DNA of 36,422 bases from assembly GCA_012838035.1 (NCBI GenBank), contig DUQB01000014.1, positions 1-36,422 on the forward strand, given 5' to 3'. This stretch comes from Bacillota bacterium. GTDB taxonomy: Bacteria > Bacillota > Limnochordia > DTU080. The notes under the pieces were generated by a model, which was not told the origin of the DNA, did not search any database, and saw only the letters and a program-made list of their open reading frames with translations. The first letter of the stretch is position 1. Every line of letters starts with the position of its first letter. Position numbers and translations under genes: made by a program. Shown piece after piece: positions 2,619-35,633 of the stretch.

Positions 2619-3992
2619 CTATTTGCCGGCGGAAAACAGGATCTTATATAGGAACTGCGACGATTGCTCCAGTATGGTGGCCATTTCAGACGCAGGCGTA
2701 TGTCCCAACCCCGGCAAGGGATGGAGTTCATTGTATACGCCGACTTTGTTCAACTCATTGGCCAGGTATTCGCTACGGCTGAACGGAACCGTTGTATCAG
2801 CGGTACCGTGAATCATAAACATCGGCGGATCCGCCGCGTCTATTTTCCCCAAATAGCGATCCAATGCCGGTGAACCCCATAGATTCAATACCGCTTTGAT
2901 TTTGCTCTTATCGTAAGCTCCCCATCTGACGTCATCTATGACGCCGATATTGACTACCAACCATCCTCCGGCCGAACCACCGCCAATAACGATTTTTTCA
3001 GGATCAATACGGTACTCGGCGGCATGCTCAAGCACCCAATTAAAAGCGGCGATGCCGTCTTCCACCGCATTATCCAGAATCTTGCCGAAGTCATCCTGGT
3101 TCGTGCCGATACGATAGTCCGCCGAAATGCAGACATATCCCCGTTTGGCGAACTCTCTGGACACTGTGCCGATGTAACCTTGCTTGCGGTCGCCGCCCTT
3201 CAGTCCGCCGCCATGTAACCATAGGATGGCCGGTCTTAGCTCTTGCGTATCGCCTTTAGGTTCATAAACATCCAAGAGCAGCCGCTGATTCACGCCTTGG
3301 AGATCGACGGCGCTTCTGAAATAAATGCCGTCATGGATCTCCACCTGCGAAAAGACAGGCTTGAGGTATCTATCGGCCGCCGGATCGTACATTGACTCCA
3401 CTGTTACCTCTCCTTCAACAAGCACTACATTATCTACCGCCACGCTACCCGGAGTGGACTTGGAAGTATAGATGATCACACGCGCCATCACCGCGCCGGC
3501 GGGAATGGTCACGACCGAACTGCTGATATCCCAATCTCCCGTCGAAAGCATGAAATCGGAGGCCAGGTTCTGCACGATCGCGGATGTCTCCATCGCTCCT
3601 GCGTTAGGCTTATTATAAGTACGCAGGCGGAAGGACAACGTACCCGTTTTACCCTTGGTGACCGCGCTCAAGGTGTATGTAGCGCCGGGCTTCACCATAA
3701 TGGGATCCGAGTAGAATACCACTGCGCCGACATCATGGTCATCCCAAAGCCACATGTAACGTTCGCCGTCCGGGGCTCCATCGGTTTTGGTGATGGCTTC
3801 CAAATTCGGCGTACGTCCTTGTGAACCCCAGTAGACTTCCCAATTGAGCGGAAAACCGTCCGCGTCGACCTCTTCAAAACCGGCGTTCAATACCAAGTTT
3901 TCCTGTGCCCAACACACCGGACTTACTGCGAAAAGAGCCAACAGGATGAATACGCTGATCCGCGCAAAAATCTGCGCTGTGTAACACTGCAT
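2619..3992 (-). CDS. Secreted CBM-like N-terminal domain + alpha/beta-hydrolase (BD-FAE / acetyl-xylan-esterase-like)
   Basis: Signal peptide; 'NLVLNAGFEE' CBM4/9-like start; 'ILWLHGGG' oxyanion motif, 'GGGSAGG' nucleophile, 'HGTADTTVPF' and 'GLGHT' Asp/His. ATG at 3992 with GAGGTG RBS preferred over the TTG at 4022. Confidence 0.9.
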   Translation of the reverse strand: MQCYTAQIFARISVFILLALFAVSPVCWAQENLVLNAGFEEVDADGFPLNWEVYWGSQGRTPNLEAITKTDGAPDGERYMWLWDDHDVGAVVFYSDPIMVKPGATYTLSAVTKGKTGTLSFRLRTYNKPNAGAMETSAIVQNLASDFMLSTGDWDISSSVVTIPAGAVMARVIIYTSKSTPGSVAVDNVVLVEGEVTVESMYDPAADRYLKPVFSQVEIHDGIYFRSAVDLQGVNQRLLLDVYEPKGDTQELRPAILWLHGGGLKGGDRKQGYIGTVSREFAKRGYVCISADYRIGTNQDDFGKILDNAVEDGIAAFNWVLEHAAEYRIDPEKIVIGGGSAGGWLVVNIGVIDDVRWGAYDKSKIKAVLNLWGSPALDRYLGKIDAADPPMFMIHGTADTTVPFSRSEYLANELNKVGVYNELHPLPGLGHTPASEMATILEQSSQFLYKILFSAGK

Positions 3993-4008
3993 TGCGAACA
4001 CCTCACTC

Positions 4009-4605
4009 TCATTCGCCTTCAATCAGCACTACCTTATCTATAGCCAAGCTGCCGGGAGTAGCCTTCGAGGTATAAATAAGCACCCGCGCCATGACTACGC
4101 CGGCGGGAATGGTAAATGTGGAGCTGCTTTCTTGCCACTCTCCCGTTGATAGAACGAGGTCGGAAGCGAGGTTCTGCACGATCGCCGAAGATTCAGTCGG
4201 CCCTGCGTCTGGTTTATTAAACGTGCGCAGACGCATAGACAACGTGCCCGACTTACCTTTGGTTATAGCGCTCAGGGTATATGTTACTCCCGGCTTTACG
4301 ACGATGGGATCCGAATAGAACACCACGGCGCCGACTTCGTGATCATCCCAAATCCACATATAGCGGTCGCCGTCAGGAGCTCCATCGGCTTTGGTAACGG
4401 CTTCCAGGTTCGGCGTAAGTCCTTGTGAGCCCCAATAGACATTCCAGCTGAGTGGGAAACCTTCTTCGTCCACTGCCTCAAAGCTGCCGTTCAACACTAA
4501 ATTATCCTGAGCCAAACACGCTGCGCTCATCACAGCAAGAGCCAACAGGATGAACAAGCTGATACTCACATGAACCAATCCGGTTTTACGATACACCGCC
4601 AACAC
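4009..4605 (-). CDS. Secreted CBM-only protein, paralog of the N-terminal module of the downstream esterase
   Basis: 198 aa with signal peptide; collinear with the esterase N-terminus, ending exactly at the module boundary (VLIEGE* vs VLVEGE-VTVESM). RBS AAAGGAG. Confidence 0.88.
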   Translation of the reverse strand: MLAVYRKTGLVHVSISLFILLALAVMSAACLAQDNLVLNGSFEAVDEEGFPLSWNVYWGSQGLTPNLEAVTKADGAPDGDRYMWIWDDHEVGAVVFYSDPIVVKPGVTYTLSAITKGKSGTLSMRLRTFNKPDAGPTESSAIVQNLASDLVLSTGEWQESSSTFTIPAGVVMARVLIYTSKATPGSLAIDKVVLIEGE

Positions 4606-6722: not shown

Positions 6723-6871
6723 TTCCATCAACCAGACAAGTACCATCGCCCTTGATATAATACCGTATAGGCGGAATGCACCCGCATCACTCGGTCGCGG
6801 TCTTGGGTTCAGTCATCCATAAACGGAGCAGCTGCTTTCCATACCGCTTATGCAAACGAGGAGTGACATAC

Positions 6872-8790
6872 TTGACGCTCTCGTCTCATGTGCCGAACAG
6901 AGCATGGTCGTCCCTACTTGCAGCGATTTTCGTACTCCTCGTACTTCAAGCCGACTCCTTTGCCGGAGCCGCCTGGCGAACCCCGTCCGGAATACCTTCC
7001 ACCGAAATCGCATCTCGCATCAATGAACTTGCGACCAAGCACATAGGCGTTACCACTCCCGGCGCGGTCATCGTCATCGTCAAGGACGGCGGAATAGACT
7101 TTTCCAAAGGCTACGGCTATGCGGATGTGGAGAACAGAATAGAGGTAGATCCGGCTACAACGGTATTTGAGTACGGTTCCATCAGCAAACTCTTTGTTTA
7201 CGCTACCTTCATGCGCCTTGCCGAGGTAGGTTTGCTGGATCTCAACGCCGACATCCGCTCGTTCTTGCCTGAAGGCTTTTTAAAAAGACTGCGTTATGAC
7301 GCGCCCATCACCTTCTACCATGTGATGGATCATACGGCCGGGTTTGAGGATTACCTCTTTGATTTAGTACACGCCTTCCCCAACAAATTCCCTTCACTTG
7401 AACAAGCGCTGCTCAACTCTCAGCCTGCGCAGGTGTACCGACCGGGAACGGTCAGCGCCTATTCCAACTACGCGGTCGCATTAGCTGCCTATATCGCTCA
7501 GCAACTCATCGGTAAAGAGTTCTTTGCGTATCTGAGAGATACGATTTTTACACCGTTGGCTATGCATCATACCTCTGCGCACCCGTTGCTAGCCGATCAC
7601 CCTGCCATGTTGCAACAAAAAGCCATCGGATATGACAGTCGACCTGCAATGCGGTTCAAGAAAGGCTTCTGGAGCCATATACCTCTCTATCCCGCCGGTG
7701 CGGTCAACGGGACGGCGGAAGATTTAGCGCGTTTCGCCATCGCGCTCATGCCGCCTGACGGTGAGGAGAGTCCGTTGTTTCAAAAGCGTGATACGCTGGA
7801 CACAATGCTCTCTCGCAGTCCTGTGAGTTCGGAGTTATCCGGCTTTGCCCATGGTTTTATTTTAAGTAAGGACAACCGCGGCGCTCTAGGGCACGGCGGC
7901 AACACGGCATTTTTACATCTCAGTTGATCATTGTGCCGAAAGCGCGTTTTGGCGTTATTGTGCTCTGTAATACAAATGCGGAAAGACAACTGACCGGCGA
8001 ACTAATCAGCATGCTGATCGCGGCGAACGACGGTGTCCAACACCTATACGACGCAGAGTTGCCCGACATTGAGCCACTTGCCGGCGTTTACATCCCGGCA
8101 CGCCGATCACATACCGGTTTTCTCAAATTATACGGTTTCCTTATGCTGCTACGTGTTAAGACGCTCGCACCGGATCTTATTGAGATGAGCTATGGAGGCC
8201 AAGTGGGGATCTATAAGCAGATTGCGCCTTATCTATTCAAGCAATTGACCAACGACGGCGTTTTAGCGGAGAGCAGCGCCTCTACCATTTATTTCGAGAT
8301 GACTGACGGTAAGGTAAAACGGATATCGGGCGACTTCCTTCCCTTACCGCCTGGTCATACAGTGAACTGGTTGATCACGGATGCCCTATCGGTTGTCTTA
8401 TGCGGCGCCTTCTTTCTACTCACACCTATTTATCTCCTGATCAGTTTTGTCATACAACCTAGAAATCGCCGGCCGCAGCAGCGTCAAAGGAAGGTGTTGT
8501 CGGTACTGCTCAACTTACACGGTACGATACTGGTCTTAAACAATGCCGCGCTCATTACGCGCGTACTGGTTGACAATTACCATTCCTATGCGGCGGTGCG
8601 CCCCCACATCCTATTGAACAATCTGTGGGTAACCACCGCTATTCTGCTCGCTTGCATCTTAGGGCGGCAACGGAAAAAGTATCTGCAGACAAAGGCGCTG
8701 AAAATCTTTGCCCTCGTGTCTGGAACCCTGCTTTCGCTATTAATCGTGCTGCTGATCAAGTGGCAGTTCCTCTATGATCTACAGCCTTGA
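6872..8790 (+). pseudogene. Beta-lactamase-class serine hydrolase with C-terminal membrane domain, interrupted by one frameshift near 7924
   Basis: ORF 6776..7927 ends '...GHGGNTAFLHLS*'; ORF 7924..8790 resumes 'LIIVPKARFGVIVLCNTN', the expected continuation. One extra T in CTCAGTTGATC restores the frame. 'SISKLF' = SxxK; 'YSNY' = YxN. TTG start at 6872 with GAGGAG RBS and signal peptide. Confidence 0.85.
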
Positions 8791-8937: not shown

Positions 8938-11463
8938 ATGAGTGAAACGACAAACGTCTTTTCGACGCTACATTTGACCGGCGAACACGTCCATACCGTT
9001 GTTCAGCAGTACCTGAAACGAAACGAGGCGATTTTCGTGTACAAAACACCATGGCGGATCACTACGTCCGTTCTGCTTATGTTAGTCTGTATGGTCGCAC
9101 CAAACTTGGCGGCTGCAGAGGAAGGGAATATGTCAGTGTGGTACTCATCTCTATATCCGCCGGATTGGGTTCCCGGGCATCACGACAGCCAGGGGCGATT
9201 CCTACAAGATTACTCCTTCGCAGGTTACCATGCGGGAGAAAAACCGCTCCCAGCCGATGTGCTTCCGCCCATATTCGATGTAACGCAGCCACCGTATTCA
9301 GCGGATCCCACCGGAAAAACCGACTCTACCAAAGCCATTCAGGCAGCCATTGACGCCGCCGGAGCGCTTGGCGGCGGTACGGTATACCTACCGGCGGGAA
9401 CCTATGCCGTCAGTATCCCCAGCTCGACCGCTAAAGCCGCTCTCCTCATTCAACACAGCAATATACGTCTCGTCGGCGACGGTCCGGATAAAACCTTCTT
9501 GCGTTTAGACAGTCATCAAGTCCGCAGCAAGGCTATGATTTTGGTGGCAGGAGAAAGCTGGTGGAACAGCGTGCTGCCCCATTCCACTCAACTGATCGCC
9601 GCCGATCTGCGGTATCCTACACAGATCATTCCGCTTGTAGGAACCCCGCAATATGAAGTGGGAGATTGGGTGGTCATTACCCACGATACCACGTTCGACT
9701 GGATACAAGATCACAATATGACGGACATGTGGAACCCGGGCGCCATTCCAGGGGTCGCCTTCTACCGGAAAGTGATCGCCGTCGACACCGAAAACAACAC
9801 CATTACCATAGACGCGCCGATCCGATACTACCTGTTGCAACGCGATAACGCACGCGTCTACCAAGTACCGAAGCATGTGGAAGAGGTTGGTTTATCGGGA
9901 TTCTCCATAGGGATGCGTCAACATCCGGGTACCGACGGTTGGGGAAGCGTTGATTATAATGTGCAGGGTACGTCGGCATGGGAGGTCCATGACTCTTACG
10001 CCATTCGCTTCAATCACGCGGTCAATTCGTGGATAACCAATGTGAAGTCCTATCGCCCCGAAGGCAACGACGTCATCCACTTGTTGTCCAACGGTATTCT
10101 ACTGTATCACAGCCGTTGGATCACGGTGTCCCATGTTGACCTGCGCAACCCGCAATACCTGGGCGGCGGGGGCAACGGCTACCTCTATACTTTGATGTCG
10201 AATGACGCCCTGATTATTCACAGCGCCGCTTATAACGGGCGCCATAATTTTGACTTTAAACAGGGCTACGCCAACGGAAACGTCATTAGCCAATGCTACT
10301 CTCATAGTCCTGCGGGTCTGCAATCCGACTTCCATATGCATCTGTCGCCGTCCAACCTCATCGACAACATCACGCTCGACTATGATCGCTTTAATGCCGG
10401 TTGGCGCGGTACGTCGGGTACCATTCCCCACGGCTTAACCACCACGCAAACCGTCCTTTGGAACACCAACGCGCAAAACTACTTGCCCAGCTCGCCAACG
10501 AGCATCATCAACTCCGAACAGTATGGGTGGGGTTATGTCATCGGTACGCAAGGTCCGGCATATAGAGTCAATTTAGGCTCCAATGCGCGCACGTTGCCCA
10601 TCGATTTCGCCGAAGGTATAGGTGATGCCGCTCATTTATACCCGCAATCGCTTTATGAAGATCAGCTGCAAAAACGGTTGGCCCGGCAAGGGATCATTCA
10701 CAACCCGGATTTGGATTTCTTGCCGCAACTACCGCGCATTGAAGCCATTTCGCCGCGCCAGGACCAAACGGTGAGCGGACATATTGAAGCGGTCTTTCAG
10801 ATCACGATTCCTGCCGGCGACTCTTTGCAGGACTTCCGGATCGATCTGGATGGTAAGAAAATCTACGCAGGAGCAACCTTACCGGAGAATCTCGTCATTG
10901 ACACCACGGCACTCTCCGACGGCAGGCATGAGTTGACTGCGTATGTCCGTTCGGAGCGAGGAAGAGAAGGCAGCCGCATCGTATATTTCAATTCCACGAA
11001 CTGGTGGACCCTTTACGATCTGCTTGATCCGCCTATGGTCACCACTTGGTTCGGCGTCATCGACCAATCAAAAACCAGCAGCCAATCAGCCGGATGGCGG
11101 TATGCCGACGATCAACCCGAAGGGCATGGCGATACAGGTCGATTGGTGCGGTCGAGTAATGATGAAGAGTATCTCATCTGGGAAACGCCGCAGTTACGCA
11201 AGTATTCCGTAACCGTTTATACCAGACCCGAGCTGGTCGACTATGTACAGTTAGCCGCCTCCTCAGACCAGGAAGAGTGGCAACTGCAGCAGTGGGACAT
11301 GAAAGTCGACGCCACCTTCGCCAATGGGCTGAGCCGCATCTTCTTAACCGGCGAAGTATCTCCTTCAGCCAAAGCCAACTGGTTCCGCCTCCTCTTACCG
11401 CCCAGCGAAATTGGGCCTGACGATTTCCAGTTGGGTGAAGTCCAGCTGCGCGGTATCAAGTAA
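8938..11463 (+). CDS. Secreted pectate-lyase-superfamily (beta-helix) protein with Ig-like and shared C-terminal module
   Basis: 'YSADPTGKTDSTKAIQAAIDAAGALGGGTVYLPAGTY' is the pectate-lyase-superfamily N-terminal signature; right-handed beta-helix-like repeats follow. Confidence 0.9.
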   Translation: MSETTNVFSTLHLTGEHVHTVVQQYLKRNEAIFVYKTPWRITTSVLLMLVCMVAPNLAAAEEGNMSVWYSSLYPPDWVPGHHDSQGRFLQDYSFAGYHAGEKPLPADVLPPIFDVTQPPYSADPTGKTDSTKAIQAAIDAAGALGGGTVYLPAGTYAVSIPSSTAKAALLIQHSNIRLVGDGPDKTFLRLDSHQVRSKAMILVAGESWWNSVLPHSTQLIAADLRYPTQIIPLVGTPQYEVGDWVVITHDTTFDWIQDHNMTDMWNPGAIPGVAFYRKVIAVDTENNTITIDAPIRYYLLQRDNARVYQVPKHVEEVGLSGFSIGMRQHPGTDGWGSVDYNVQGTSAWEVHDSYAIRFNHAVNSWITNVKSYRPEGNDVIHLLSNGILLYHSRWITVSHVDLRNPQYLGGGGNGYLYTLMSNDALIIHSAAYNGRHNFDFKQGYANGNVISQCYSHSPAGLQSDFHMHLSPSNLIDNITLDYDRFNAGWRGTSGTIPHGLTTTQTVLWNTNAQNYLPSSPTSIINSEQYGWGYVIGTQGPAYRVNLGSNARTLPIDFAEGIGDAAHLYPQSLYEDQLQKRLARQGIIHNPDLDFLPQLPRIEAISPRQDQTVSGHIEAVFQITIPAGDSLQDFRIDLDGKKIYAGATLPENLVIDTTALSDGRHELTAYVRSERGREGSRIVYFNSTNWWTLYDLLDPPMVTTWFGVIDQSKTSSQSAGWRYADDQPEGHGDTGRLVRSSNDEEYLIWETPQLRKYSVTVYTRPELVDYVQLAASSDQEEWQLQQWDMKVDATFANGLSRIFLTGEVSPSAKANWFRLLLPPSEIGPDDFQLGEVQLRGIK

Positions 11464-21039: not shown

Positions 21040-23607
21040 CTATTGTTCTAGTCCTGTTAAATGTACGCGCCCTATTTGTAACTCCTTAGCGCTATGTCGG
21101 CCTGCCGCTACGATCAGTCGGAAATATCGCACCGCATCGGGATCAGGAATCTCTGCGGTCAGGTCCAACTTGTGCAGGCCCGATGCGGGCTCCTCCAGAC
21201 AACGAAGCGTATATGGTACTTCCACCCACTGCTGTTGGTCGGCTGACACTGCCAGGACGACCTGGTCGGCCACATCCTCGTCCGTCGCGTACACGATGAT
21301 CTTTGCTGCGAGCAAACGCGGCGCTTCCCAAACCAACCACTCTTGGTTCTCGGTTGAACGCACTCTACGCGAAGCATCGCCGAAAAAGCTTGCCGCATTG
21401 TCGGTGTCGTAGTCCCAGCCTGCCGAAACAGCCGACGTTAGGGAGCGATCGAAGACACCGAACCAAGAAGCCTGAGGAGCATCTAAGTGATCATCCAGCT
21501 CCCAGTAGTTGTCGATCACGATGTTCACCGTTGCGCTTATATCATTCCCATCTTTACCGCGAGCAACGGCGGTGAACCGGGTGAATCCGTCAGCGAATCG
21601 CATGGCGTCTACCCACGTCGGCACGTTCTCTATAGATCCCTCATAAACGACCTGATCGCCTACCAACAACCGTACCGCGTCGATCAGCGCCGCCGGTATG
21701 CCCATCGCTATAGACACCGGTATCCGCTCCGCATATTTCCCGCTCTGAACCGGTGATTCCAAGCGCATATTGCTGACCGCAAACTCTATGATTCTTTCGC
21801 TGGTTGTTGCTCCGCTCTCAGCGACTACTTTCAGTCGATGCCACCTGTCGGTTAACTCACCTTGGTTTACCGTAACCTGAGCGGAAGAGCCGGCTGAACG
21901 CTGGATCAGGTTGTCATCTACATACACGCTTAGAGTGATCGGTGCGTTGAGCCGACCAGTGTTAACGACGCTCACGTTCACATCAATGGGTCCCCACCAG
22001 CCGGCAACAGCATCGCAGTTGCCGGTTAAATCCAAGGTGGTGAAGTACAACCCGGGCGCATCGTAATCCACAGGCCGCATGGTTATTCCGTACGGTCCCA
22101 CATCCGCCGCCGTAAGCGGGCCTCGCAACAGTGGGTAACCGGCATATTCAAAGGCGCCGACATCCGGTTTGTCACCGCGCGGTTTTCCCTCAATGTCCGT
22201 AACCACCGCCGGCTGGGGGATTCCCGTATCAATCGCCGGACTTGCGGGCGCAATATAATAGCCGCTCAGGTTCCGGCTCAGTGGCGCCTCCATGTACCGT
22301 ACCCCCGCATAGTCGCTGCCGATCTCACAGCCGCCGCATTGGACGATGTTGTTCATCCATGTTAATTGCGACATCCCCTGCAGATCAAGGGCCGGTTCGG
22401 TCGTTTCGGTTACAAAAAGGTTATTTACGAAAAGGACGTTCTTGGGAGCAAGCGGGTAGTTCCCCGTAGAAACGATGACGATATCAGCCTTATTGTTGAT
22501 GAACGTGTTGTTGGCGATCAGCAACCGCTCCACTTGCCAATAGTCCATTACCGTCACTTGATTTTCGACGTCCGCCATACCCAGCGAAATGGCGGAACGC
22601 ACTCCGCTGCCGCCTAGTTCAACGAAGTAGTTATTGTAGATTTTATGGTCGGCGCCATAAACACGGATCCCGCCCGTATCAGGTTTACCGTTGCCGATAA
22701 AGTAGTTCCCGTACACGTCGGTGCCGTTACCATGTCGGTAGGTTACGGCGCCTTCGCTCTCTAAAAAGGTGTTATAACGAATGGTATTGCCGCCCGATTT
22801 GATGGAAATGATTTCAGCTTCACCGTTGCAGCGTTCGAACAGGTTGTATTCGATGATAGTCAGGGCATCGGAAGTCGATGTGTAGCTGTTGCCGATCCGA
22901 ATGGCCTCCATACCGCCCGAACCGATGTTGATGATATCTTTGAAGTGGTTGTGATCAATGCGGTTATGTTGCGCCACCCGGGTATCATCACCGGCTATGG
23001 TGATGAAGTTCCCGACCGTGCGTTTACCTGCAAATAGGTTATGATCGATACGATTGGCTATTGATCCGAACCCGTTCACATATAGCCAGTGCCGACTCGC
23101 ATCATCCTTGCTTCCTATCGGTTCCTCCAACGCAAAATGACTCCGAGTCACCCGGCTGTGGTCGGTATTCTGCAACCTTAACCCGCCACTGCTTTTCTGC
23201 GCTGTCTTAAACACCAGACCGTCAATCACGATGTAACTGGAGTTTTCCAGCCAGAGTGACGAGTTCCCGGCAATGACGGCCTGACCGCGGTTTTGCGCCC
23301 GTACGATGATCGGTTTTTCCGCAGTCGCACGTTTGTTGCGTATGTAAAAAGCACGACCGATATCGTACTCTCCGTCCGCCAGTTCGATTACATAGCCGGG
23401 TTGCGCTGAAAGGAGCGCTCTATCCAACTCTTGGGCCGTGCTCACGAACACATACACTGCGTCGATAGGATCTGCAACATATTCTACGTCCAGCACGGGA
23501 TCAAACGCTGTTACGACGGTATCCGGCATCGCGACGGCAATCCGGCAGAAACACAATATGATCGTCACGACGCAGGCAATTACGGTACCTTTAGCTGCTC
23601 TATACAC
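21040..23607 (-). CDS. Secreted polysaccharide lyase family 6 (chondroitinase B / alginate lyase type) with C-terminal accessory domains
   Basis: PL6 motifs: 'NRIDHNLFAGKRTVGNFITI', 'NLFERCNGEAEIISIKSGGNTIRYNTFLESEGAVTYRHGNGTDVYGNYFIGNG'. GTG at 23607 preceded by GGAGGT; signal peptide follows. Confidence 0.93.
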   Translation of the reverse strand: MYRAAKGTVIACVVTIILCFCRIAVAMPDTVVTAFDPVLDVEYVADPIDAVYVFVSTAQELDRALLSAQPGYVIELADGEYDIGRAFYIRNKRATAEKPIIVRAQNRGQAVIAGNSSLWLENSSYIVIDGLVFKTAQKSSGGLRLQNTDHSRVTRSHFALEEPIGSKDDASRHWLYVNGFGSIANRIDHNLFAGKRTVGNFITIAGDDTRVAQHNRIDHNHFKDIINIGSGGMEAIRIGNSYTSTSDALTIIEYNLFERCNGEAEIISIKSGGNTIRYNTFLESEGAVTYRHGNGTDVYGNYFIGNGKPDTGGIRVYGADHKIYNNYFVELGGSGVRSAISLGMADVENQVTVMDYWQVERLLIANNTFINNKADIVIVSTGNYPLAPKNVLFVNNLFVTETTEPALDLQGMSQLTWMNNIVQCGGCEIGSDYAGVRYMEAPLSRNLSGYYIAPASPAIDTGIPQPAVVTDIEGKPRGDKPDVGAFEYAGYPLLRGPLTAADVGPYGITMRPVDYDAPGLYFTTLDLTGNCDAVAGWWGPIDVNVSVVNTGRLNAPITLSVYVDDNLIQRSAGSSAQVTVNQGELTDRWHRLKVVAESGATTSERIIEFAVSNMRLESPVQSGKYAERIPVSIAMGIPAALIDAVRLLVGDQVVYEGSIENVPTWVDAMRFADGFTRFTAVARGKDGNDISATVNIVIDNYWELDDHLDAPQASWFGVFDRSLTSAVSAGWDYDTDNAASFFGDASRRVRSTENQEWLVWEAPRLLAAKIIVYATDEDVADQVVLAVSADQQQWVEVPYTLRCLEEPASGLHKLDLTAEIPDPDAVRYFRLIVAAGRHSAKELQIGRVHLTGLEQ

Positions 23608-23899
23608 TAGCGCGCACCTCCGGTGATACAATTCCGCACACTTTAGTCGGATCCTGGTACAGAAGGGGAACAACCTCCGAAGCCGTAGTCCCGCCCATTA
23701 ACCAACGTGATGCCATACTGGGATTTTTCCACAAGAATCCGGTTCAAAACTCGTTTTGCGTCCGTCAAGCTGGAATTGAGGTCGGCGGCGTCAATAGAGC
23801 AATGAATTCTCGGGCAAAGGGAGGCGCGAACATTCATCTGCGAATGCCTGACGCTTGCACTCCGGTATGCGCTAAAGCGTACCCCTTCAGATGCGCGAG

Positions 23900-26800
23900 C
23901 TATTCATCTCGCCACCCGACAAGCGTCAATTTGCCCAGCTGCAGTACTCGCTCCCCGACGGCAGGTAAAACAGTAATACGAAAGTAGGCGTCACTTGTGG
24001 ATTCCGGCACAGTTCCCTTTATGGTCGCCTTCAGCCACCCACTAGCTCCTTGCTCTGTCTGCACCTGGGAAAACGGCACTCTGCGCCAACCCCCTGCGTC
24101 ATCACTTACCTCTAACCTAATCAGATCCGTGACATCAGCAGTCGGCCCATAGAGTACCAGCTCATAGCTTTCCAACAAAGGCGCTTCCCAAATGAGAAAG
24201 CCCTCATCATTGCCGGTCGGCGTATAACGTGTATCGTCGTAGAAGAAATGAGTGGGCTGGTCCGTATCGTAGCGCCAATTGGTGGACTGAAGTATAGCAG
24301 TAGTCCCCCCTACTGAGCCGAACCATGCCGATTCTACTTTAGGAGCGAAGTCATCCGTCATGATCCAGTGGTTATTGAGTTGCAGCGTTACACCTGTTGA
24401 GGCCGAACGGCCGTCTGCCAAAGTCACATGTAATGTGACCAAATGCCTCCCATTGGCCAATGTGGAGGTATCAAGGGTCCAGGTGTCTGGTATCGTCGCC
24501 GCTTCGTAAACCGGAGCGCCATTCAGTCTGATAATCACCGACTGCACCGCGTCATCAGCTGTGAGTTGTTCAGAAATGGCGAATGGCAACTGTCTCACGC
24601 CAACAGTACTCTCACTCATAGGTGTGATCTTTAAGCCTGCAGCCAGGGTTGACACCGGAACAGAGTCAATGATGACCTCATCTAGTTGGTAGGAGTCGTT
24701 GGGACCTACCATTTGGGTGCCTTGATTAAAGCTCACCCCATAAGCCATCTTCAGCTCGGGCATGAGTGAACGTACGGTTCGCACATCGATACACAACTCA
24801 TGCCACTGGCCGTCATTGAATAGGAGTTGTCCGCCTACATTGGACAATCTAGTATCGGTATGGTCATAGGTTGCTGCCAGAATAAACGTGCGACCTACGA
24901 AGGTATCTAACTGTAAAGCCAGCGGTGTCCCCTGCATGATGCGGTAACGCACATATAGATAGGGATACTGGTCAATATCCCAGTTCGGCACCTGAATATC
25001 CGTATACAGTGTTGAGTCGGCAGCCGAGCCGTTCACGCGAATATAACCATCACCTGCTGCAGACGTTACCACCAATCTGTTATTCTTCGTATATCCGGGT
25101 TGGAAACGCCAACGCCACCACCAACTCGTATCGTTCCGATCAAAGCTGGAATGCAACAACGGGCCACCTTCTGCGGCTACCACCTCCACCACCTGGAGGC
25201 CGTAGTGGACTTCGCCATCGGCGTCCAGCACTTTAACGATGATCGGATACAACCCTGGATCGGTATAGACATGGGTTACTTCTCGCCCATAGACGGCAGG
25301 ACCACCATCACCTAAAGACCAATCGTACTGAATGATGTCGTCGATACCCTGCGTTAAGGCGGTTAAGCGCAACGGAGTACCGACCTGGAGCGTCGCTGCC
25401 GATAATTCGACTTTGACCGTAGCGGTCAGGTCATCATCCATCTCATATACCCCGATGTCCGGCGCCGACCCACTCCAAGGCAGTCCGACAGGCATACCGT
25501 CTTGCCATGTTACTTCCCGGTCCAGCGTCAGCAGCCTGTTTTCATAATCTATCGCTACGACCCGTGCCGTTTGCGATGCATCACCGACCTGAATCAGGTC
25601 ACCGACCTCCCCGACGATACCGAATCCATCGTAAAAGCCGTAAGCATCCTCAACCGGTAGTACCTTGCCGTTACCGTTACCGCGTGTTTTAGTAAGCGCC
25701 GCACCGCCGTCACGAAGCGCGCTGGCGTTATCCAGTGAAAAATCGTTACGCTCCGCTGCCAAGAAACCGAGCTCCGCGTTGGCTTGACTCCCCCAGATGT
25801 TGTCGTAATCCACCAGTCTAGGATCTAACTCCAGGATGCCGGAGAGCGCATTGTTTCGAAAGCGCACTTGCCCTGTATTCTGACCTCTCAAGGTAAGTTG
25901 CGTTCCGGTACCGAGTGCGTCATTATTGCCCATGACATTGTTCTGCACCACGATGTCGTTGATATACGGGCTGATGGAGATCTCCAGCCCCGTTTTGACG
26001 TTTTCATAGAACACATTGTTGTAAATGCGTACGTGCTCAATGATGTCCAAATCGCTGTCGGCATCGGTGAACAGGGCGAAAGGTGAGTCCCAGTTACGAA
26101 ACATCACGTTACGGCGAACGATGCCGTGGTCCACGCGCAGCTTCGAGCGCGCGCCGCCCATGGCCCCTTGGTAAGCTCCCGTGACGATATTGCCGTCTAA
26201 GAGCACATGCCGTGCTGTGAAAAATTCAAAAGCTCGACCCCAGGTGTTGATGAGAATGTTGTTGCGCATGACGATATACTCGTTTGATGCGCGCGGGTAG
26301 AACGAGATAGCGGTATGAAGACTGCCGCCGATGACATTTCCTGCAAAGAGGATGTGTCTGGAGGTATCGACGCGAATAATGTCCTCATTTGGTCGCAGCG
26401 TCAAGCTCGCTCCCTGCGGTGGTAGCCTGCGGATGATATTATCCGTGATTCCAACCTGCTCACTACCGACGACATAGAAGGGCAAGCGAGCGTTGGCGCC
26501 GTATTCCATGATGTTGTTCTCAATAGCAATGTGGCGCGCGTTCTCTACCCTTATCCAACCGGCCGTAGATGACTTAGGAGTGATGTGAAAATCGGCTATG
26601 CGGATATGTGCAACCTTAGCAAGCACCACCACCGCTTCGCTTCCGGATGTACCCAATAGTCGTACGCTATGAGGCGTTTCGGGCATAAAGGTGATTGGCG
26701 CATCGATCGTGCCACTGCGCACAGGGCGCAGAATTTCCTCATATTCGCCTGGCAAAAAGATGACCGTATCGCCAGGTTGTGCTTGCGATACCGCTTTGGC

Positions 26801-26974
26801 TATGGTAGCCCAGGGCTGACTGCGACTACCATCGCCGGCATTGTTACCTGCAGGTGAAACATAGTAGGTAGTACCCGCCGAAACGCTCGCAGCCGTTATC
26901 ATTACATATGCCGACACTACCAGCACCAAAATAAGAATCAGGCGGCATCTTCCCTTTCGGGCCATAGCCTCCAT
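23900..26974 (-). CDS. Secreted right-handed beta-helix protein with PKD-like domain, beta-sandwich, Ig-like and shared C-terminal module
   Basis: 'TYYVSPAGNNAGDGSRSQPWATIAKAVSQAQPGDTVIFLPGEY' beta-helix N-terminus; 'YDWSLGDGGPAVYGREVTHVYTDPGLYPIIVKVLDADG' PKD-like motif; signal peptide. Confidence 0.92.
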   Translation of the reverse strand: MEAMARKGRCRLILILVLVVSAYVMITAASVSAGTTYYVSPAGNNAGDGSRSQPWATIAKAVSQAQPGDTVIFLPGEYEEILRPVRSGTIDAPITFMPETPHSVRLLGTSGSEAVVVLAKVAHIRIADFHITPKSSTAGWIRVENARHIAIENNIMEYGANARLPFYVVGSEQVGITDNIIRRLPPQGASLTLRPNEDIIRVDTSRHILFAGNVIGGSLHTAISFYPRASNEYIVMRNNILINTWGRAFEFFTARHVLLDGNIVTGAYQGAMGGARSKLRVDHGIVRRNVMFRNWDSPFALFTDADSDLDIIEHVRIYNNVFYENVKTGLEISISPYINDIVVQNNVMGNNDALGTGTQLTLRGQNTGQVRFRNNALSGILELDPRLVDYDNIWGSQANAELGFLAAERNDFSLDNASALRDGGAALTKTRGNGNGKVLPVEDAYGFYDGFGIVGEVGDLIQVGDASQTARVVAIDYENRLLTLDREVTWQDGMPVGLPWSGSAPDIGVYEMDDDLTATVKVELSAATLQVGTPLRLTALTQGIDDIIQYDWSLGDGGPAVYGREVTHVYTDPGLYPIIVKVLDADGEVHYGLQVVEVVAAEGGPLLHSSFDRNDTSWWWRWRFQPGYTKNNRLVVTSAAGDGYIRVNGSAADSTLYTDIQVPNWDIDQYPYLYVRYRIMQGTPLALQLDTFVGRTFILAATYDHTDTRLSNVGGQLLFNDGQWHELCIDVRTVRSLMPELKMAYGVSFNQGTQMVGPNDSYQLDEVIIDSVPVSTLAAGLKITPMSESTVGVRQLPFAISEQLTADDAVQSVIIRLNGAPVYEAATIPDTWTLDTSTLANGRHLVTLHVTLADGRSASTGVTLQLNNHWIMTDDFAPKVESAWFGSVGGTTAILQSTNWRYDTDQPTHFFYDDTRYTPTGNDEGFLIWEAPLLESYELVLYGPTADVTDLIRLEVSDDAGGWRRVPFSQVQTEQGASGWLKATIKGTVPESTSDAYFRITVLPAVGERVLQLGKLTLVGWRDE

Positions 26975-27166: not shown

Positions 27167-27745
27167 TTAATCGAGCTGCACTATACGTACGTCGTCCAGA
27201 TAGTACTCTGTCCGCTCGTTTTCCGTCAGCGGAGACTGGCTTAGACTTACCCGTATGGCTTCACATGTCTCCGGTAAGGTGAAGACAAATTCGAAGTACT
27301 GCCACTCACCGGGCATATAATCATCCGCAAAGTGTCGCATTTGAGTCTCTCGAATAAAAGCTCCGGCGGTGTTGTTCACAACAGCTATCGACGTGATGCC
27401 GTCTTTCATGTAAAGCCAGTAGCTGAACTTATAGGTCTTGCCGCCGTCAACCGCAATAGAGACGGAGTTCAAAAACTGAGCGTTACGCCGTGTGGTGGAA
27501 ACCATGCGTAAAGCCGACCGGCCATCCACCTTATCCGGAGCCGGACCGAGCTCATCATGGTGCAGTACGTTGGCGGTCCATCCCACCGTACGGAGTTTTT
27601 CAGGCGTATCCGCGCTGACTACAGTCCACTCTTCTTCAAAGCTGCCGTTAACGACCAGATTTGTCTCAGCAGCCACACCAACTACCTGTACCATACACAC
27701 CAGAAGAACCACTACCAACGCAAGCATGCTACCGTTATATTTCAC
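27167..27745 (-). CDS. Secreted CBM-only protein (CBM4/9-like)
   Basis: 192 aa, signal peptide, 'ETNLVVNGSFEEEW' start and 'YYLDDVRIVQLD' end. GTG with AAGGAGG RBS, 84 nt after the SBP gene. Confidence 0.85.
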   Translation of the reverse strand: MKYNGSMLALVVVLLVCMVQVVGVAAETNLVVNGSFEEEWTVVSADTPEKLRTVGWTANVLHHDELGPAPDKVDGRSALRMVSTTRRNAQFLNSVSIAVDGGKTYKFSYWLYMKDGITSIAVVNNTAGAFIRETQMRHFADDYMPGEWQYFEFVFTLPETCEAIRVSLSQSPLTENERTEYYLDDVRIVQLD

Positions 27746-27829: not shown

Positions 27830-29131
27830 TTACGGCTTCCTCGATAGGTAATCCGCTAGTGTTAAATTCATGATCCGCTCAGCTTCTTCAAGCGCTCCGC
27901 TGATGGCCATCTGGTCTTGAACGGCGCTGAGGATAATCGTACCCGTCGGCGTGCTGATTTCCGAGAGCAACGGGTGTTTGGGACCATAAGTAGTTATGGG
28001 AGGAGTGAACAGAGCGATTTGCTCTCTGGAATACAACCGAGACAGGATGTCACGGTTGGTGAATAACGAGGCCATAACGGGCTGATACGCCGGCATAATC
28101 ATCAGATAGTCTCGCATATTCACCGGATCAGCAAACGCGGCCATGACTTTCCAAGCCGCATCTTTATCTTTTGCCGAGTAGAGCATGTATAGCCCGCCGG
28201 CACAGTGTTCAATGATATCCGTGCCGCCTTCAGGGCCGACAAACCGGCGGAAGCTGATATCTAACCCGTAGTTCGGGATATCATATAATTGCCTAGTCAC
28301 ACCTTGGACGCTGGCCATGGCCACGCGATCGGCATACACTTCCGGCCAGCGTACGCCGAACCGTTTATCAGGCATGCCTGCATGATAAAGGTCGCGGATA
28401 AAGGTTAAGGCTTGGTTACCAGCTTGGTTGTTGAGTGTGCCTGTGCTGTCCCCAGGCTTGATGATGATGGAGTTGAGCTGCTCCATTGTCCGACCAAGAA
28501 TGTAAAACATGTAGAAAGCTGACCCTGCGCTCTGGTAGCCGTATGTTTTGACTGTACCGTCCGGATTGATCTGGGTGAGTTTACTGGCTGCGGCGACCTG
28601 TTCGCTCCAACTGGTAGGTAGGTCGATCCCTGACTGCTGGAACAAGGTGAGATTGTAGATATCGTTAATTGGCCACATCATGTATGGCAGCGCATACTTC
28701 TTACCTTCAATCTCCACGCCCTCAAGTAAGGCCGGCAGCAGTTCGGCAGTATGATCCCACTCCGCATAGTAGGAATCCAGCGGCACCGCCATTCCGCCGT
28801 ATACGCCGCTATGTGTGAACCGTCCGACCACATTGGTTGATAAGTAGGCGATGTCCGGGCCGGTTCCGGTCGCCACGCCGATGGCCACAGCCTCATTAAG
28901 GCCGGTGGTACCACCAGCCACAAAGCGCAACTCCAGGTCGATGTCCGGATTCTCTTCCTCGAAATTCTTTTCAAACTGAGCAAAGAATTGCTGCTCAGCG
29001 TCAGTTACATAAAAACTGGATGGGAACCACATGTTGATCGTCGTCTTCGCGGCAGCGACCCCGTTCACGCTCAACACTATGGACAAAACGATGACCATCA
29101 CTACCGGTTTACTTAGGTACCGTGTCGCCAA
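27830..29131 (-). CDS. Extracellular (sugar) solute-binding protein, family 1
   Basis: 'INMWFPSSFYVTDAEQQFFAQFEKNFEEENPDIDLELRFVAGG', 'GTGPDIAYLSTNVVGRF', 'KYALPYMMWPINDIYN'. Confidence 0.93.
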   Translation of the reverse strand: MATRYLSKPVVMVIVLSIVLSVNGVAAAKTTINMWFPSSFYVTDAEQQFFAQFEKNFEEENPDIDLELRFVAGGTTGLNEAVAIGVATGTGPDIAYLSTNVVGRFTHSGVYGGMAVPLDSYYAEWDHTAELLPALLEGVEIEGKKYALPYMMWPINDIYNLTLFQQSGIDLPTSWSEQVAAASKLTQINPDGTVKTYGYQSAGSAFYMFYILGRTMEQLNSIIIKPGDSTGTLNNQAGNQALTFIRDLYHAGMPDKRFGVRWPEVYADRVAMASVQGVTRQLYDIPNYGLDISFRRFVGPEGGTDIIEHCAGGLYMLYSAKDKDAAWKVMAAFADPVNMRDYLMIMPAYQPVMASLFTNRDILSRLYSREQIALFTPPITTYGPKHPLLSEISTPTGTIILSAVQDQMAISGALEEAERIMNLTLADYLSRKP

Positions 29132-29379: not shown

Positions 29380-30564
29380 TTAAGAATGTTGACTTAACCG
29401 GTCGATGACCTTACCGACAGCTACATCAACCGCTCCCAAGGCTACGCCGTAGGTACCCAGGGTAGTGGTTTGCACTAAGTTGCTGTGAAATACTCTAGGC
29501 ACGACATGTCTTTCAATGACTCTGCTTAAAGCCGCTATAAAGTCATCGCCTACATTACGCAATAAACCGCCTAAAACAACGACATCCGGATTGAACAGAT
29601 TGACTACGTAAGAGATCCCTAAGCCTAATTTCTCGGCCAATTTGGTTGTAACATCCACCGCTAGCTTATCCTTGTCGATTGAAGCTGCAATAATATCCTC
29701 AAAGGTAATGGATCTACCTTCAATGTTATTTAACACCGACTCAGCTTCAGGAGAGAGGTCGGCTAAGGTTTGCTCAACTACGACGGCAGGAGTAGCCATG
29801 GTTGCCAGACATCCCCGTCCGCCACAGAAACACCGCGGTCCATCAGGATCTAAACACAAATGGCCCAACTGCCCGGCTAAACCTCCTCCTCTCACCAGTC
29901 TGCCGTGATCTACGCAGGCCAAACCCAGCGCAGCCCCGTAGTCCGCGTTTACGTACGCAAACGACGACACCTGGTCTTTAATTCCATGATTAAGTTCGCC
30001 GAGCGCTGCGGCTTGTGTCCGTGCCTCAAGATAAACGGGCACACCGATCATTTGCGTCAATTGATCTGCGAGAGCGATATTCTGCAGCTTATATGGCGGG
30101 AGACTGAGTATCACGCCTGTATCGCGATTGACGAGCCCGTAGGAAGCAAGGCCGCATGCGAGTAGCCGACGCCCCTGATGCGCGATACGCAACCTGTTGA
30201 CCAGCATGCCTATGTGATGTTCGAGCGTTTCGAGGGTCAGTGCATCTACTAAAGACTGTTCCGCACACCCGATCACTTCTCCGGTAAAGTCGGTGACAAG
30301 AGCCCGAATATAGGCATTAGTCATCTCCATGCCGATGAGACAGCCAAAATCGGCATGCAAAGACAATGCTACGGGACAGCGGCCGCGCGGCGTACTGATT
30401 GTGCCTTTCTCAACGATAAGACCTTGGAGAATAAGGTCGGATACCAAATCGCTCGTCATGCTGGAGCCAAGGTTTAAGTAACGTCCGATATCCCTTCTGG
30501 AACTTATTCCCTTTTGATATAGATACTTCAGAATTCTCGCTTGAGTACGGTTTATTATTGCCAT
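29380..30564 (-). CDS. ROK family transcriptional regulator
   Basis: N-terminal winged HTH 'ARILKYLYQKGISSRRDIGRYLNLGSSMTSDLVSDLILQGLI'; 'CFCGGRGCLATMATP' ROK zinc motif; 'LGISYVVNLFNPDVVVLGG'. Confidence 0.95.
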   Translation of the reverse strand: MAIINRTQARILKYLYQKGISSRRDIGRYLNLGSSMTSDLVSDLILQGLIVEKGTISTPRGRCPVALSLHADFGCLIGMEMTNAYIRALVTDFTGEVIGCAEQSLVDALTLETLEHHIGMLVNRLRIAHQGRRLLACGLASYGLVNRDTGVILSLPPYKLQNIALADQLTQMIGVPVYLEARTQAAALGELNHGIKDQVSSFAYVNADYGAALGLACVDHGRLVRGGGLAGQLGHLCLDPDGPRCFCGGRGCLATMATPAVVVEQTLADLSPEAESVLNNIEGRSITFEDIIAASIDKDKLAVDVTTKLAEKLGLGISYVVNLFNPDVVVLGGLLRNVGDDFIAALSRVIERHVVPRVFHSNLVQTTTLGTYGVALGAVDVAVGKVIDRLSQHS

Positions 30565-32741: not shown

Positions 32742-33401
32742 ATGAGAACATTCCGTACTGTCGTCATCTTCGTATTATGCGTACTGTTGGCGAGCTTCGG
32801 CTTGGTCTACGCGCAGGATCTAGCGGTTTTCAACGGGGACTTTGAGCTGTTGCCCGAGGGAGTAACAGCTGAAGAGGCTCTGGGTAAAACGCCTTACGGC
32901 TGGTCAGCCTCGATTGCTACCGCGCCGACAATACCAGACGGTCATATCTCAGCATCGTTGACCGACGCAAAAGTGTTCAGCGGCAAGTTCGCCGTCCGTT
33001 TGTATACCAATGATGCCGCCAGCATCTTGCTATCCAGCCGTCCCATCCCTATCCAGGGCGGATTAACATACGCCGCTCTATTTCGGATTTTTGACGTAGA
33101 TGATCTGGCTACGAATCATACCCAAGCTTATATGGAGTTCTGGGCTGATGACCAGGGCTGGTGGGGACATCGGGACTTCTGGTCGGAGGAGAGCTGGCGT
33201 GAGCAAACTCCAGGCGGATGGGGCACCTCTAAAAGGCTCTCTGCCGTATGGGCCGCCGCAAAAAGCTTCAACACCTGGGAAGAGGTTATCGTTATGGCCG
33301 ATGCCCCGGCAAATGCGAAATATGTAACCTTGTCGCTATGGATTCCGCGGCGACCAATGCATACCTACATCGATGAGATCCAGCTGGCAGTGGTGGAATA
33401 G
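32742..33401 (+). CDS. Secreted CBM-like protein without recognisable catalytic domain
   Basis: 219 aa, signal peptide, 'QDLAVFNGDFELLPEG' start, 'HTYIDEIQLAVVE' end; AGGAGGT RBS. Confidence 0.85.
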   Translation: MRTFRTVVIFVLCVLLASFGLVYAQDLAVFNGDFELLPEGVTAEEALGKTPYGWSASIATAPTIPDGHISASLTDAKVFSGKFAVRLYTNDAASILLSSRPIPIQGGLTYAALFRIFDVDDLATNHTQAYMEFWADDQGWWGHRDFWSEESWREQTPGGWGTSKRLSAVWAAAKSFNTWEEVIVMADAPANAKYVTLSLWIPRRPMHTYIDEIQLAVVE

Positions 33402-33558: not shown

Positions 33559-35472
33559 TTACTTCCTCATGACCGCCACATCATCAACTTGCAACCACAC
33601 CGAAGCAGCGCCGTCACTTGCGGAAACGACGGCTATCTCCATATAGTTCTCGGTCACTGCCACCTGATCGATCACCACGTACCGCCATTCGGAGCTTGGC
33701 TCCAGATTAACTTCGAGTATTTCTCCCCCATAGTTGCTTACCTGCAGCTTGGCCGCCGTATGACCGCCGCTGCTTCGCACCCAAGCCGAAACCTGGTAGG
33801 TTCCCTGTGGAAGATGGCTTAAGCGCTGTTTAGTCGTCGCTTGATACGCTTGGTCGCCGGAATGCTCCAATGCGTACTCCCCGCTGCGGCCGCCGGCCAC
33901 CACCTTGCTTGCGCTCGCGGCGCCCTGCTTGATCCAGCCCAGAGCTTCACTCGAATTGTTCAGCTCAAAAGAAGCGTTGCCGACATAGTTGATCTCCTGA
34001 TCGACACGAGCATAGAACCGGAAGTAGTCGAACTGGGCTGCGGCATTGGATAAAGGAGCCTGAGTATAAGTACGCCCGTCGGCTAGCGCAGTTAAAAGCA
34101 CATTTTGCGGTGCGAAGACGTCTTCTATGTGATAAGTATAAACATACTCACCGTCAGCGTAGAAATTCACCCTGCCGGGTAGCCATTCAAATCCCCATGT
34201 GAACCAGTTCGTCGTATCAATTTCAAAACGCGCTCGGCCCGGATAGCTGTACGCTTCCGGAAAATGACGGTGGATGGTCACGTTCAAGCGACTAGAATTT
34301 TCTGAGTCCACTTCGAAACCGTCAATTTCCAACAAGGCGCCCAACCTCGGAGCCTGCCCGCTTTGAACATCCTCACCGCTGAACGAACCCATAGTCCAAA
34401 ATGACTGATGTAATCCAGGCGTAGCGCCGTAAAGCTTAGCACGTACTTCATAGTATCCATAACCAAACGGATTGCGGGAGATTATGCCCCCTGCGGAGTA
34501 ATCGAGTTTGCCGTCCATGTTATAATCGGCCTGTTTGAAATCGATATACAGATTAGAGTTACCTGCCGCATCCGGTCCTACCCGAACGTTGCTCGGCAAG
34601 TTGTAGCTGTCCCACTTCGTACCGGTGCGATAAAACCAGTCGTTTGTGTTGAGCCCATCTCCCGTGAAGTGGTCCTCATAGGTGAGTTGATAATAATCGC
34701 TTTGTGTAGGACGGCGCTTGAGAATAACCTTGAATGTATTAGACTTACCATCCGCCTCTGTAACGGTCACCATCACGACCTGCTCCGCTCCTGCTCCCAA
34801 CTCCACTACCACTTGGTTTACCCGTTCACCGTTCATAAGCACGCTTTGAGTAGCCGTCATAGGAACAGCCTGTAAAGTCACTTGCGTGATTTCATCAGGC
34901 ACAATCACATCATACACGTCCTGCAGGGGGCTAGGTACGACATAACCGATTTCAGGAACAGCCAGTTGCCCTAACACCGGATTGCCGTGATAGTACAGTT
35001 CGAAGTTCCGTAGGCCGATGGCCGAACTCTTGGTATCATTGCGCAGAGCCACATAACGTACATATCTGGCCGTGACGGTCGGAAACGAACCAGCCTCATC
35101 GCGCAAAACGGCATCGATCTTCTCCATGGCATCGGTCCAATGCTCACCGTCGTTAGAGTACTGGAACTTATACCCGCTCATATACGGATACCCATAAACA
35201 TCCAGCTTGTAACTATCGAACGGCATTGGTCGGCCTAAATCGACGACAAGCCAGATTTCACCTTCGGTAACGCCTACACGCCAATAAGTGGCAGCGCTGT
35301 TATCCACTGCAAGATTACCCGGATAACTGGCAGCGGCAAAAGAGGTGGTGACCGGCTTGTTCAACACCAAGTTTCCGTCTGCTGCTTGTACAGCAACAAC
35401 CGTAGACAACACGAACAGCACCACATATAGGATCAAAATGTTCATGATCTTCATAGTAGACACAAACGACAT
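33559..35472 (-). CDS. Secreted GH16 glycoside hydrolase with N-terminal F5/8-type C (discoidin) domain, cadherin-like beta-sandwich and C-terminal CBM
   Basis: GH16 catalytic 'LLEIDGFEVDSEN' (ExDxxE); 'YSAGGIISRNPFGYGYYEVRAKLYGATPGLHQSFWTMG', 'WFTWGFEWLPGRVNFYADGEYVYTY'; N-terminal discoidin-type 'NLAVDNSAATYWRVG...'. Confidence 0.93.
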   Translation of the reverse strand: MSFVSTMKIMNILILYVVLFVLSTVVAVQAADGNLVLNKPVTTSFAAASYPGNLAVDNSAATYWRVGVTEGEIWLVVDLGRPMPFDSYKLDVYGYPYMSGYKFQYSNDGEHWTDAMEKIDAVLRDEAGSFPTVTARYVRYVALRNDTKSSAIGLRNFELYYHGNPVLGQLAVPEIGYVVPSPLQDVYDVIVPDEITQVTLQAVPMTATQSVLMNGERVNQVVVELGAGAEQVVMVTVTEADGKSNTFKVILKRRPTQSDYYQLTYEDHFTGDGLNTNDWFYRTGTKWDSYNLPSNVRVGPDAAGNSNLYIDFKQADYNMDGKLDYSAGGIISRNPFGYGYYEVRAKLYGATPGLHQSFWTMGSFSGEDVQSGQAPRLGALLEIDGFEVDSENSSRLNVTIHRHFPEAYSYPGRARFEIDTTNWFTWGFEWLPGRVNFYADGEYVYTYHIEDVFAPQNVLLTALADGRTYTQAPLSNAAAQFDYFRFYARVDQEINYVGNASFELNNSSEALGWIKQGAASASKVVAGGRSGEYALEHSGDQAYQATTKQRLSHLPQGTYQVSAWVRSSGGHTAAKLQVSNYGGEILEVNLEPSSEWRYVVIDQVAVTENYMEIAVVSASDGAASVWLQVDDVAVMRK

Positions 35473-35633
35473 CCCCTTTCCTAACTCACTCCCTGCGCCG
35501 AAGATTATCCCAGCGCCGGTTGTCACCGGTAATAAACCATGCCTGTCCACTCATATCGCTGACAACAGTTTCGGCATGCGTAAATGCTGTCCTTGTCCTG
35601 CAATTGGTAAACTTTAGTTAAAGTAAATGGCCA

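Follow-up and report, generated by a model that had tools for sequence, protein, structure and literature searches.

A C-terminal module common to many exported enzymes of uncultured Bacillota is a candidate attachment domain

Introduction

In type IX secretion, many exported enzymes of a two-membraned bacterium carry a common C-terminal domain. To our knowledge, the delivery and retention of large polysaccharide-degrading enzymes outside the outer membrane have been little studied in two-membraned Bacillota. Two other lineages place a standard module on diverse enzymes. In Ruminococcus albus, the lineage-restricted CBM37 is present in 51–102 copies on many unrelated GH/PL/CE families; it is found on enzymes whose orthologues carry dockerins, in genomes with at most one cohesin, and cell attachment of enzymes through it has been reported (PMC4081043, PMC4954948). 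In Fibrobacter succinogenes, FPm-1 (the basic terminal domain) is a lineage-specific paralogous C-terminal module encoded by 24 genes, carried by many polysaccharide-degrading enzymes, and thought to localize its proteins (PMC3079729).

Here we describe a C-terminal module from a draft genome of the class Limnochordia, a class described as diderm (PMC11456536; PMC10628300). We began from a single stretch of 36,422 nucleotides (the window) and compared its enzymes with those of related genomes and with the systems above.

Results

Three proteins of the window end in the same block

Three large exported proteins encoded in the window end in a common block of ~240 residues, an Ig-like domain followed by a module of ~155 residues, at ~30% identity (Table 1). 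In blastp comparisons, copies 1 and 2 are 32% identical over 252 aa (E 3e-32), copies 1 and 3 are 32% identical over 240 aa (E 7e-30), and copies 2 and 3 are 30% identical over 232 aa (E 2e-24). This three-way match is far above chance and includes the Ig-like segment, while outside the block the same comparison gave only weak matches among the three hosts (E ≥ 0.15). The initial annotation, made by reading the sequence, had proposed both the common ending, on the strength of quoted strings, and the Ig-like segment before it; we found all of the strings, and both proposals hold. Its start for copy 1 (10987) lies three residues before the module start. For copy 2 it had the right gene, given as 21040..23607, where 23607 is a later start within the ORF. 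It was silent on strand; copies 2 and 3 both lie on the minus strand. The host of copy 1 has weak matches to mannuronan C5-epimerase and to hyaluronan and rhamnogalacturonan enzymes.

Table 1. Coordinates of the three module copies, the Ig-like domains that precede them, and their host proteins in the window
Feature	Position	Strand	Extent	Basis
C-terminal module, copy 1	10996..11463 (including stop)	+	residues 687-841 of 841-aa ORF 8938..11463	blastp, HMM, AF2 model
Ig-like (Big_7-like) domain directly 5' of copy 1	10723..10995	+		Pfam Big_7 E 0.015 (below cut-off), AF2 strands, upstream-Ig HMM
Host of copy 1, exported right-handed beta-helix protein	8938..11463	+		Pect-lyase_RHGA_epim
C-terminal module, copy 2	21040..21513	-	residues 721-877 of host	
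Ig-like domain preceding copy 2	21514..21786	-		alignment, upstream-Ig HMM
Host of copy 2, PL6-type lyase (chondroitinase B/alginate lyase family)	21040..23673	-		E 2.5e-58 to solved alginate lyases
C-terminal module, copy 3	23900..24376	-	residues 867-1024 of host	AF2 model
Ig-like (Big_7-like) domain preceding copy 3	24377..24649	-		Pfam Big_7 E 6.9e-5 (23.8 bits vs cut-off 24.1), upstream-Ig HMM
Host of copy 3, exported beta-helix + PKD protein	23900..26974	-		ORF, domain search

The window also encodes other exported proteins. One is a GH16-like enzyme without the module (33559-35550, minus strand). It combines an F5/8 domain, which shares 83% identity with the one in a module-bearing protein (L021), with cadherin-like and CBM_4_9 regions. 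Two adjoining CBM_4_9 paralogues, a stand-alone exported domain (4009-4605, minus) followed by a fusion to a BD-FAE-like esterase (2619-4022, minus), contain very similar stretches that suggest a duplication. Small exported proteins with no catalytic domain (27167-27745, minus, and 32742-33401, plus; one is a lone CBM_4_9) are encoded in the neighborhood of the module-bearing enzymes; also close to them are an ORF resembling sugar-binding proteins (27830-29131) and a ROK-like regulator (29380-30564). Finally, a beta-lactamase/serine-hydrolase-like ORF (6776-7927, plus) overlaps by 4 bases an ORF (7924-8790, plus) that apparently continues it and adds membrane segments; a frameshift or split gene is possible.

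The module is abundant in a few related genomes

Copy 1 as query gave 32 matches in the source genome (G000), a draft of 3.72 Mb in 253 contigs in which no 16S rRNA gene was found. Iterative HMMs returned the same 32, of which 30 are complete and two are cut by contig ends. The original count of three copies is therefore right for the window and too low for the genome. With the 30-row alignment A2, we found the module in seven of the 73 genomes of the class and in none of the other 66. Beyond the 32 matches in the source genome, there were 30 in G001, 23 in G002, 12 in G007, six in G003, three in G005, and one in G028, counts that for these relatives include split and fragment matches, so that true copy numbers are slightly lower. 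By shared sequences, G001 is "Clostridia bacterium DTU080" (LFTP01), and G002 and G028 are two Bacillota MAGs; DTU080 features in a biogas-microbiome paper (PMC4736482). Across 399 genomes of the phylum, the sole match outside the class was a weak one in G382. We found no viral relatives in IMG/VR with the patterns used, nor in phages, and a plasmid search gave nothing beyond one chance-level match. A viral, phage, or plasmid origin was rejected. A viral-structure Foldseek search with the Ig-plus-module model returned only low-TM matches, to phage structural proteins and tail fibers. By these searches, the module is a lineage-specific family of a limited group of uncultured Bacillota with two membranes.

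The module is always C-terminal and single

In every one of the 97 copies whose end is intact, no more than 15 residues (median 4) separate the end of the model from the stop codon, and among the hosts of all genomes (~100 proteins) the module never occurs twice in one protein. The only non-terminal matches are weak generic ones in G007 (L144) and G382 (L080/L081), and these lack the N-terminal segment. An HMM detected the same Ig-like domain upstream of the module in 91 of the 94 hosts with enough sequence. Because three G001 hosts have another domain at this place, the module and the Ig-like domain are separable. The module is acidic (median pI 4.63, median net charge –10, range –17 to –2 over 96 copies), and its tail is neither hydrophobic nor basic.

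Unrelated enzymes carry the module

Every copy closes an enzyme-like protein. A crude hydrophobicity count found a strong N-terminal hydrophobic segment in 80 of 103 hosts over all genomes, and most hosts without one are gene fragments or are truncated at a contig end; nearly all ORFs of the source genome with an intact start have an N terminus that, judged by eye, resembles a signal peptide. The catalytic parts include PL6, several beta-helix groups, GH43 with DUF7402, SASA and DUF4886 esterase-like domains, heparinase II/III-like domains, 3-keto-disaccharide hydrolase, and a region like beta-N-acetylgalactosaminidases. Single-linkage clustering of these parts gave 28 groups, of which 15 have at least two members, so the module ends proteins of at least 15 unrelated catalytic groups. 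Clustering and domain searches thus bear out the early proposal that different catalytic cores carry a common module. Other accessory domains, usually of substrate-binding type (F5/8, DUF7402, and CBM4_9), are separate from the module and lie elsewhere in the same proteins or in the same genome.

The module tree tracks the catalytic group (23 changes versus a mean of 45 and a minimum of 41 in 200 shuffles), and therefore whole architectures look old and inherited together. The same result is consistent with each copy being a substrate-targeting CBM that binds the polysaccharide cut by its own enzyme, or else a matrix glycan of plants or algae (uronic-acid polymers, for instance), and that diversified with the enzyme. 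The low identity among copies of one genome (median 29%) fits this explanation, as do the polysaccharide lyase-rich hosts, which suggest acidic glycans, and the sugar-binding fold neighbors described below. However, the tracking is equally expected from simple co-inheritance and does not discriminate between a common ligand and enzyme-specific binding. Moreover, the strict C-terminal position and single copy persist despite very different substrates, the best-conserved part of the module is common to all enzyme types, and several hosts already carry separate CBM-like domains. We regard substrate targeting as a substantial possibility that is well short of probable.

The predicted fold is a galactose-binding-like jelly roll

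No family in Pfam, NCBIfam, or PHROGs covers the module, and a PDB sequence search gave only matches with E > 1; with no match above threshold in any of these, the module has no named family, as had been claimed. F5_F8_type_C (PF00754) matched weakly in four of 30 copies (best E 0.0017) without reaching its curated cut-off, and Pfam gave no F5/8 match over the module in the hosts of copies 1, 2, and 3. CBM35 and CBM6 had no Pfam match at E ≤ 1 among the families listed for the 30 copies. Pfam found SLH repeats in no copy, though they are present elsewhere in the genome. In profile comparisons, hhalign reached 30% probability over 71 columns against F5/8 domains and found no link to DUF7402.

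We ran AlphaFold2 on seven sequences; the Ig-plus-module model of copy 1 had a mean pLDDT of 86 and the model of the copy 3 module alone 75, and strand order agrees between them. Foldseek with the module alone returned galactose-binding-like jelly rolls at TM of about 0.3–0.55, including the Eph ligand-binding domain, CBM35, CBM6, CBM32, and Cry11A. Among these are the Clostridium thermocellum CBM35 with anhydrogalacturonate (2w47, E 8.6e-4) and a CBM6 bound to agar oligosaccharide (2cdp, E 1.1e-3), with CBM35/CBM6 TM of 0.34–0.46, and the CBM32 4a42 (TM 0.45/0.55). The models tentatively support placing the module in the galactose-binding-like (discoidin/CBM) beta-sandwich superfamily, in agreement, at TM of about 0.55 or less, with the fold guessed in the initial annotation. 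Neither family profiles nor Foldseek put it squarely in a characterized CBM family, and the copies modeled, 1 and 3, are predicted to fold alike.

The best-conserved segment is particular to the module

Over 96 copies, W720 (copy 1 numbering) is invariant, and G719, R735, N688, W781, W748, S717, P699, G706, and D732 are near-invariant. Segment 687-722 is the best conserved between enzyme types (mean identity 0.38 versus 0.23–0.32 elsewhere); both AlphaFold2 models have their lowest confidence at its WFG loop. The last ~125 residues of the module are homologous (hhalign 98.3%, E 1.7e-14) to a generic domain that forms two N-terminal copies in a GH30-like enzyme of G382 and occurs in two lipoprotein-like ORFs of G007. 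Both forms have the motifs GD..R, L.Y/W, S.D...W, and Q.G. The generic domain, in contrast, is N-terminal, lacks the NWW...PP...WFG...S.GW segment, and has W720 replaced; the first ~35 residues (WFG...S.GW) are particular to the module, with most of 687-722 missing from the generic homologues. Because the WFG segment is conserved across enzymes, is modeled with low confidence, and is missing from generic homologues, it fits a functional loop, and its conservation despite an irregular structure suggests a contact site. The invariant R735, W781, D732, and position 748 (W or Y), common to the generic homologue, may be structural.

These observations bear on whether the module just stabilizes the C terminus, as a structural cap or a solubility domain that is passive and has no ligand. 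Such a role would suit an acidic, always terminal domain, several of whose invariant residues are common with the generic homologue and may belong to the core. However, a conserved irregular PP....WFG loop with low model confidence would be unusual for a mere cap, which we consider the least probable of the readings weighed here.

The two G007 ORFs (L144, contig C96; 659-1222 and 1226-4000) adjoin, are lipoprotein-like (GC after a hydrophobic N terminus), and each start with the generic form. With the generic domain as query, plasmids gave no match. Paenibacillus enzymes may have a similar "D.L.DW" domain, which we give as a lead only.

Some close paralogues lack the module

The PL6 protein L159 is 64% identical to the module-bearing L027 and ends after its catalytic part, and L157 is 67% identical to the module-bearing L037 and stops exactly after the Ig-like domain. 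Truncation could be an assembly or sequencing artefact; no module was found in other frames downstream of either gene. In one group of beta-helix enzymes, two paralogues (L023 and L026) end in the module, and two without it (L160 on contig C242 and L161 on C138 of the source genome) end in ~60 aa that form two dockerin-like calcium-loop repeats. On the contig of L159 (G000:C87), this module-less lyase is followed, 3' of position 2116, by a small exported discoidin-like ORF, which gives the impression that the binding part sits on a protein of its own.

Another possible role is that of the type IX secretion domain: a signal at the C terminus by which proteins are sorted or secreted across the outer membrane. 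Such a signal would be found exclusively at the C terminus of exported proteins, as this module is. The lineage is suitable: the host class encodes an outer membrane, with the BamA gene present in 12 of 12 genomes tested, and the class, inferred as Limnochordia partly from this gene and the biogas origin, is described as diderm (PMC11456536). However, the close exported paralogues without the module argue against an obligatory secretion signal, and G028 has one copy. The module matched no type IX tail family in Pfam or NCBIfam and has no hydrophobic or basic tail. SprA (PF14349) was not found in 12 genomes, nor in controls, so that this search had no positive control. No secretin was found in the draft genome G001, which has 30 module matches, and dependence on a secretin is thus not supported. 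We judge a secretion signal very unlikely.

Cohesin (PF00963) was not found in G000, G001, G002, G003, G007, or G028, and dockerin (PF00404) had no match over threshold in 12 genomes. With no cohesin, dockerin over threshold, type IX tail, or secretin found in the genomes searched, sequence comparison points to no conventional alternative system that explains the module.

Discussion

We tentatively favor, at nearly even chances, a lineage-specific C-terminal attachment module that binds one ligand common to all host enzymes; the common targeting or attachment domain guessed from the window is in this sense plausible. Polysaccharide lyases, glycosidases, and esterases would be exported through an N-terminal signal peptide, with the Ig-like domain as a probable spacer. 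The module would bind the common ligand, most likely a glycan of the producer itself, at its surface or in its matrix, via the PP....WFG / S.GW loop region, and different enzymes would thereby be held together near the cell. This reading draws on the sequence family, C-terminal position, signal-like N termini, predicted fold, conserved loop, restricted distribution, and outer-membrane gene.

We favor a common ligand because the module is strictly C-terminal, occurs once per protein, and is conserved across enzymes. Its strictly terminal single copy in ~100 proteins of unrelated catalytic groups, mostly with hydrophobic N termini, supports attachment. So, probably, do the conservation of the WFG segment across enzyme types and the separate substrate-binding-type domains elsewhere in hosts and genome. 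The exchange of module and dockerin-like repeats among paralogues is of the same kind as the CBM37/dockerin exchange in Ruminococcus (PMC4081043) and by analogy also argues for attachment, as do the sugar-binding CBM35, CBM6, and CBM32 among the predicted fold neighbors. Conversely, jelly rolls of this superfamily bind many things and the TM values are modest, some invariant residues may be structural, and the tree is equally expected from enzyme-specific specificity. The single copy in G028 fits poorly with anchoring as a general scheme.

A bolder proposal, which we consider unlikely, is that this diderm clade has a dedicated C-terminal surface-display or retention system, in which a single envelope ligand or receptor reads the WFG/S.GW loop and ~30 different polysaccharide-degrading enzymes per cell are placed beyond the outer membrane with no part for cohesins, SLH anchors, or type IX secretion. 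If true, this would be a system not described before. One module on ~30 enzymes per genome offers a single handle on where these enzymes go, and, with the family unnamed, ~100 enzymes of anaerobic-digester bacteria have ends that carry no annotation.

Among known domains, F5/8 type C (discoidin)/CBM32 resembles the module in its predicted jelly roll and a similar S-D-G-x-W ... R-Y-x-R pattern, but differs by the weak Pfam and profile scores given above. CBM35 and CBM6 are Foldseek neighbors, bound to uronate and agar oligosaccharide, but at low TM and with no Pfam sequence match. The type IX secretion domain differs in that the module has no sequence match to it, is longer, and is missing from close paralogues; a cellulosome differs in that neither dockerin nor cohesin is over threshold in the module-bearing genomes searched. 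FPm-1 of Fibrobacter is likewise C-terminal on many exported enzymes, but is basic, whereas the module is acidic (median pI 4.6). Ruminococcus CBM37 is also high-copy, on many catalytic groups, and lineage-restricted, as the module is (7/73 class genomes), but CBM37 is sometimes tandem and can be internal (PMC4081043), which the module never is. Should the module serve for attachment, it would add an independent example of a lineage standardizing its enzyme ends, beside CBM37 and perhaps FPm-1. On the best reading, which compares descriptions, it would be put to much the same use as these two modules of Ruminococcus and Fibrobacter.
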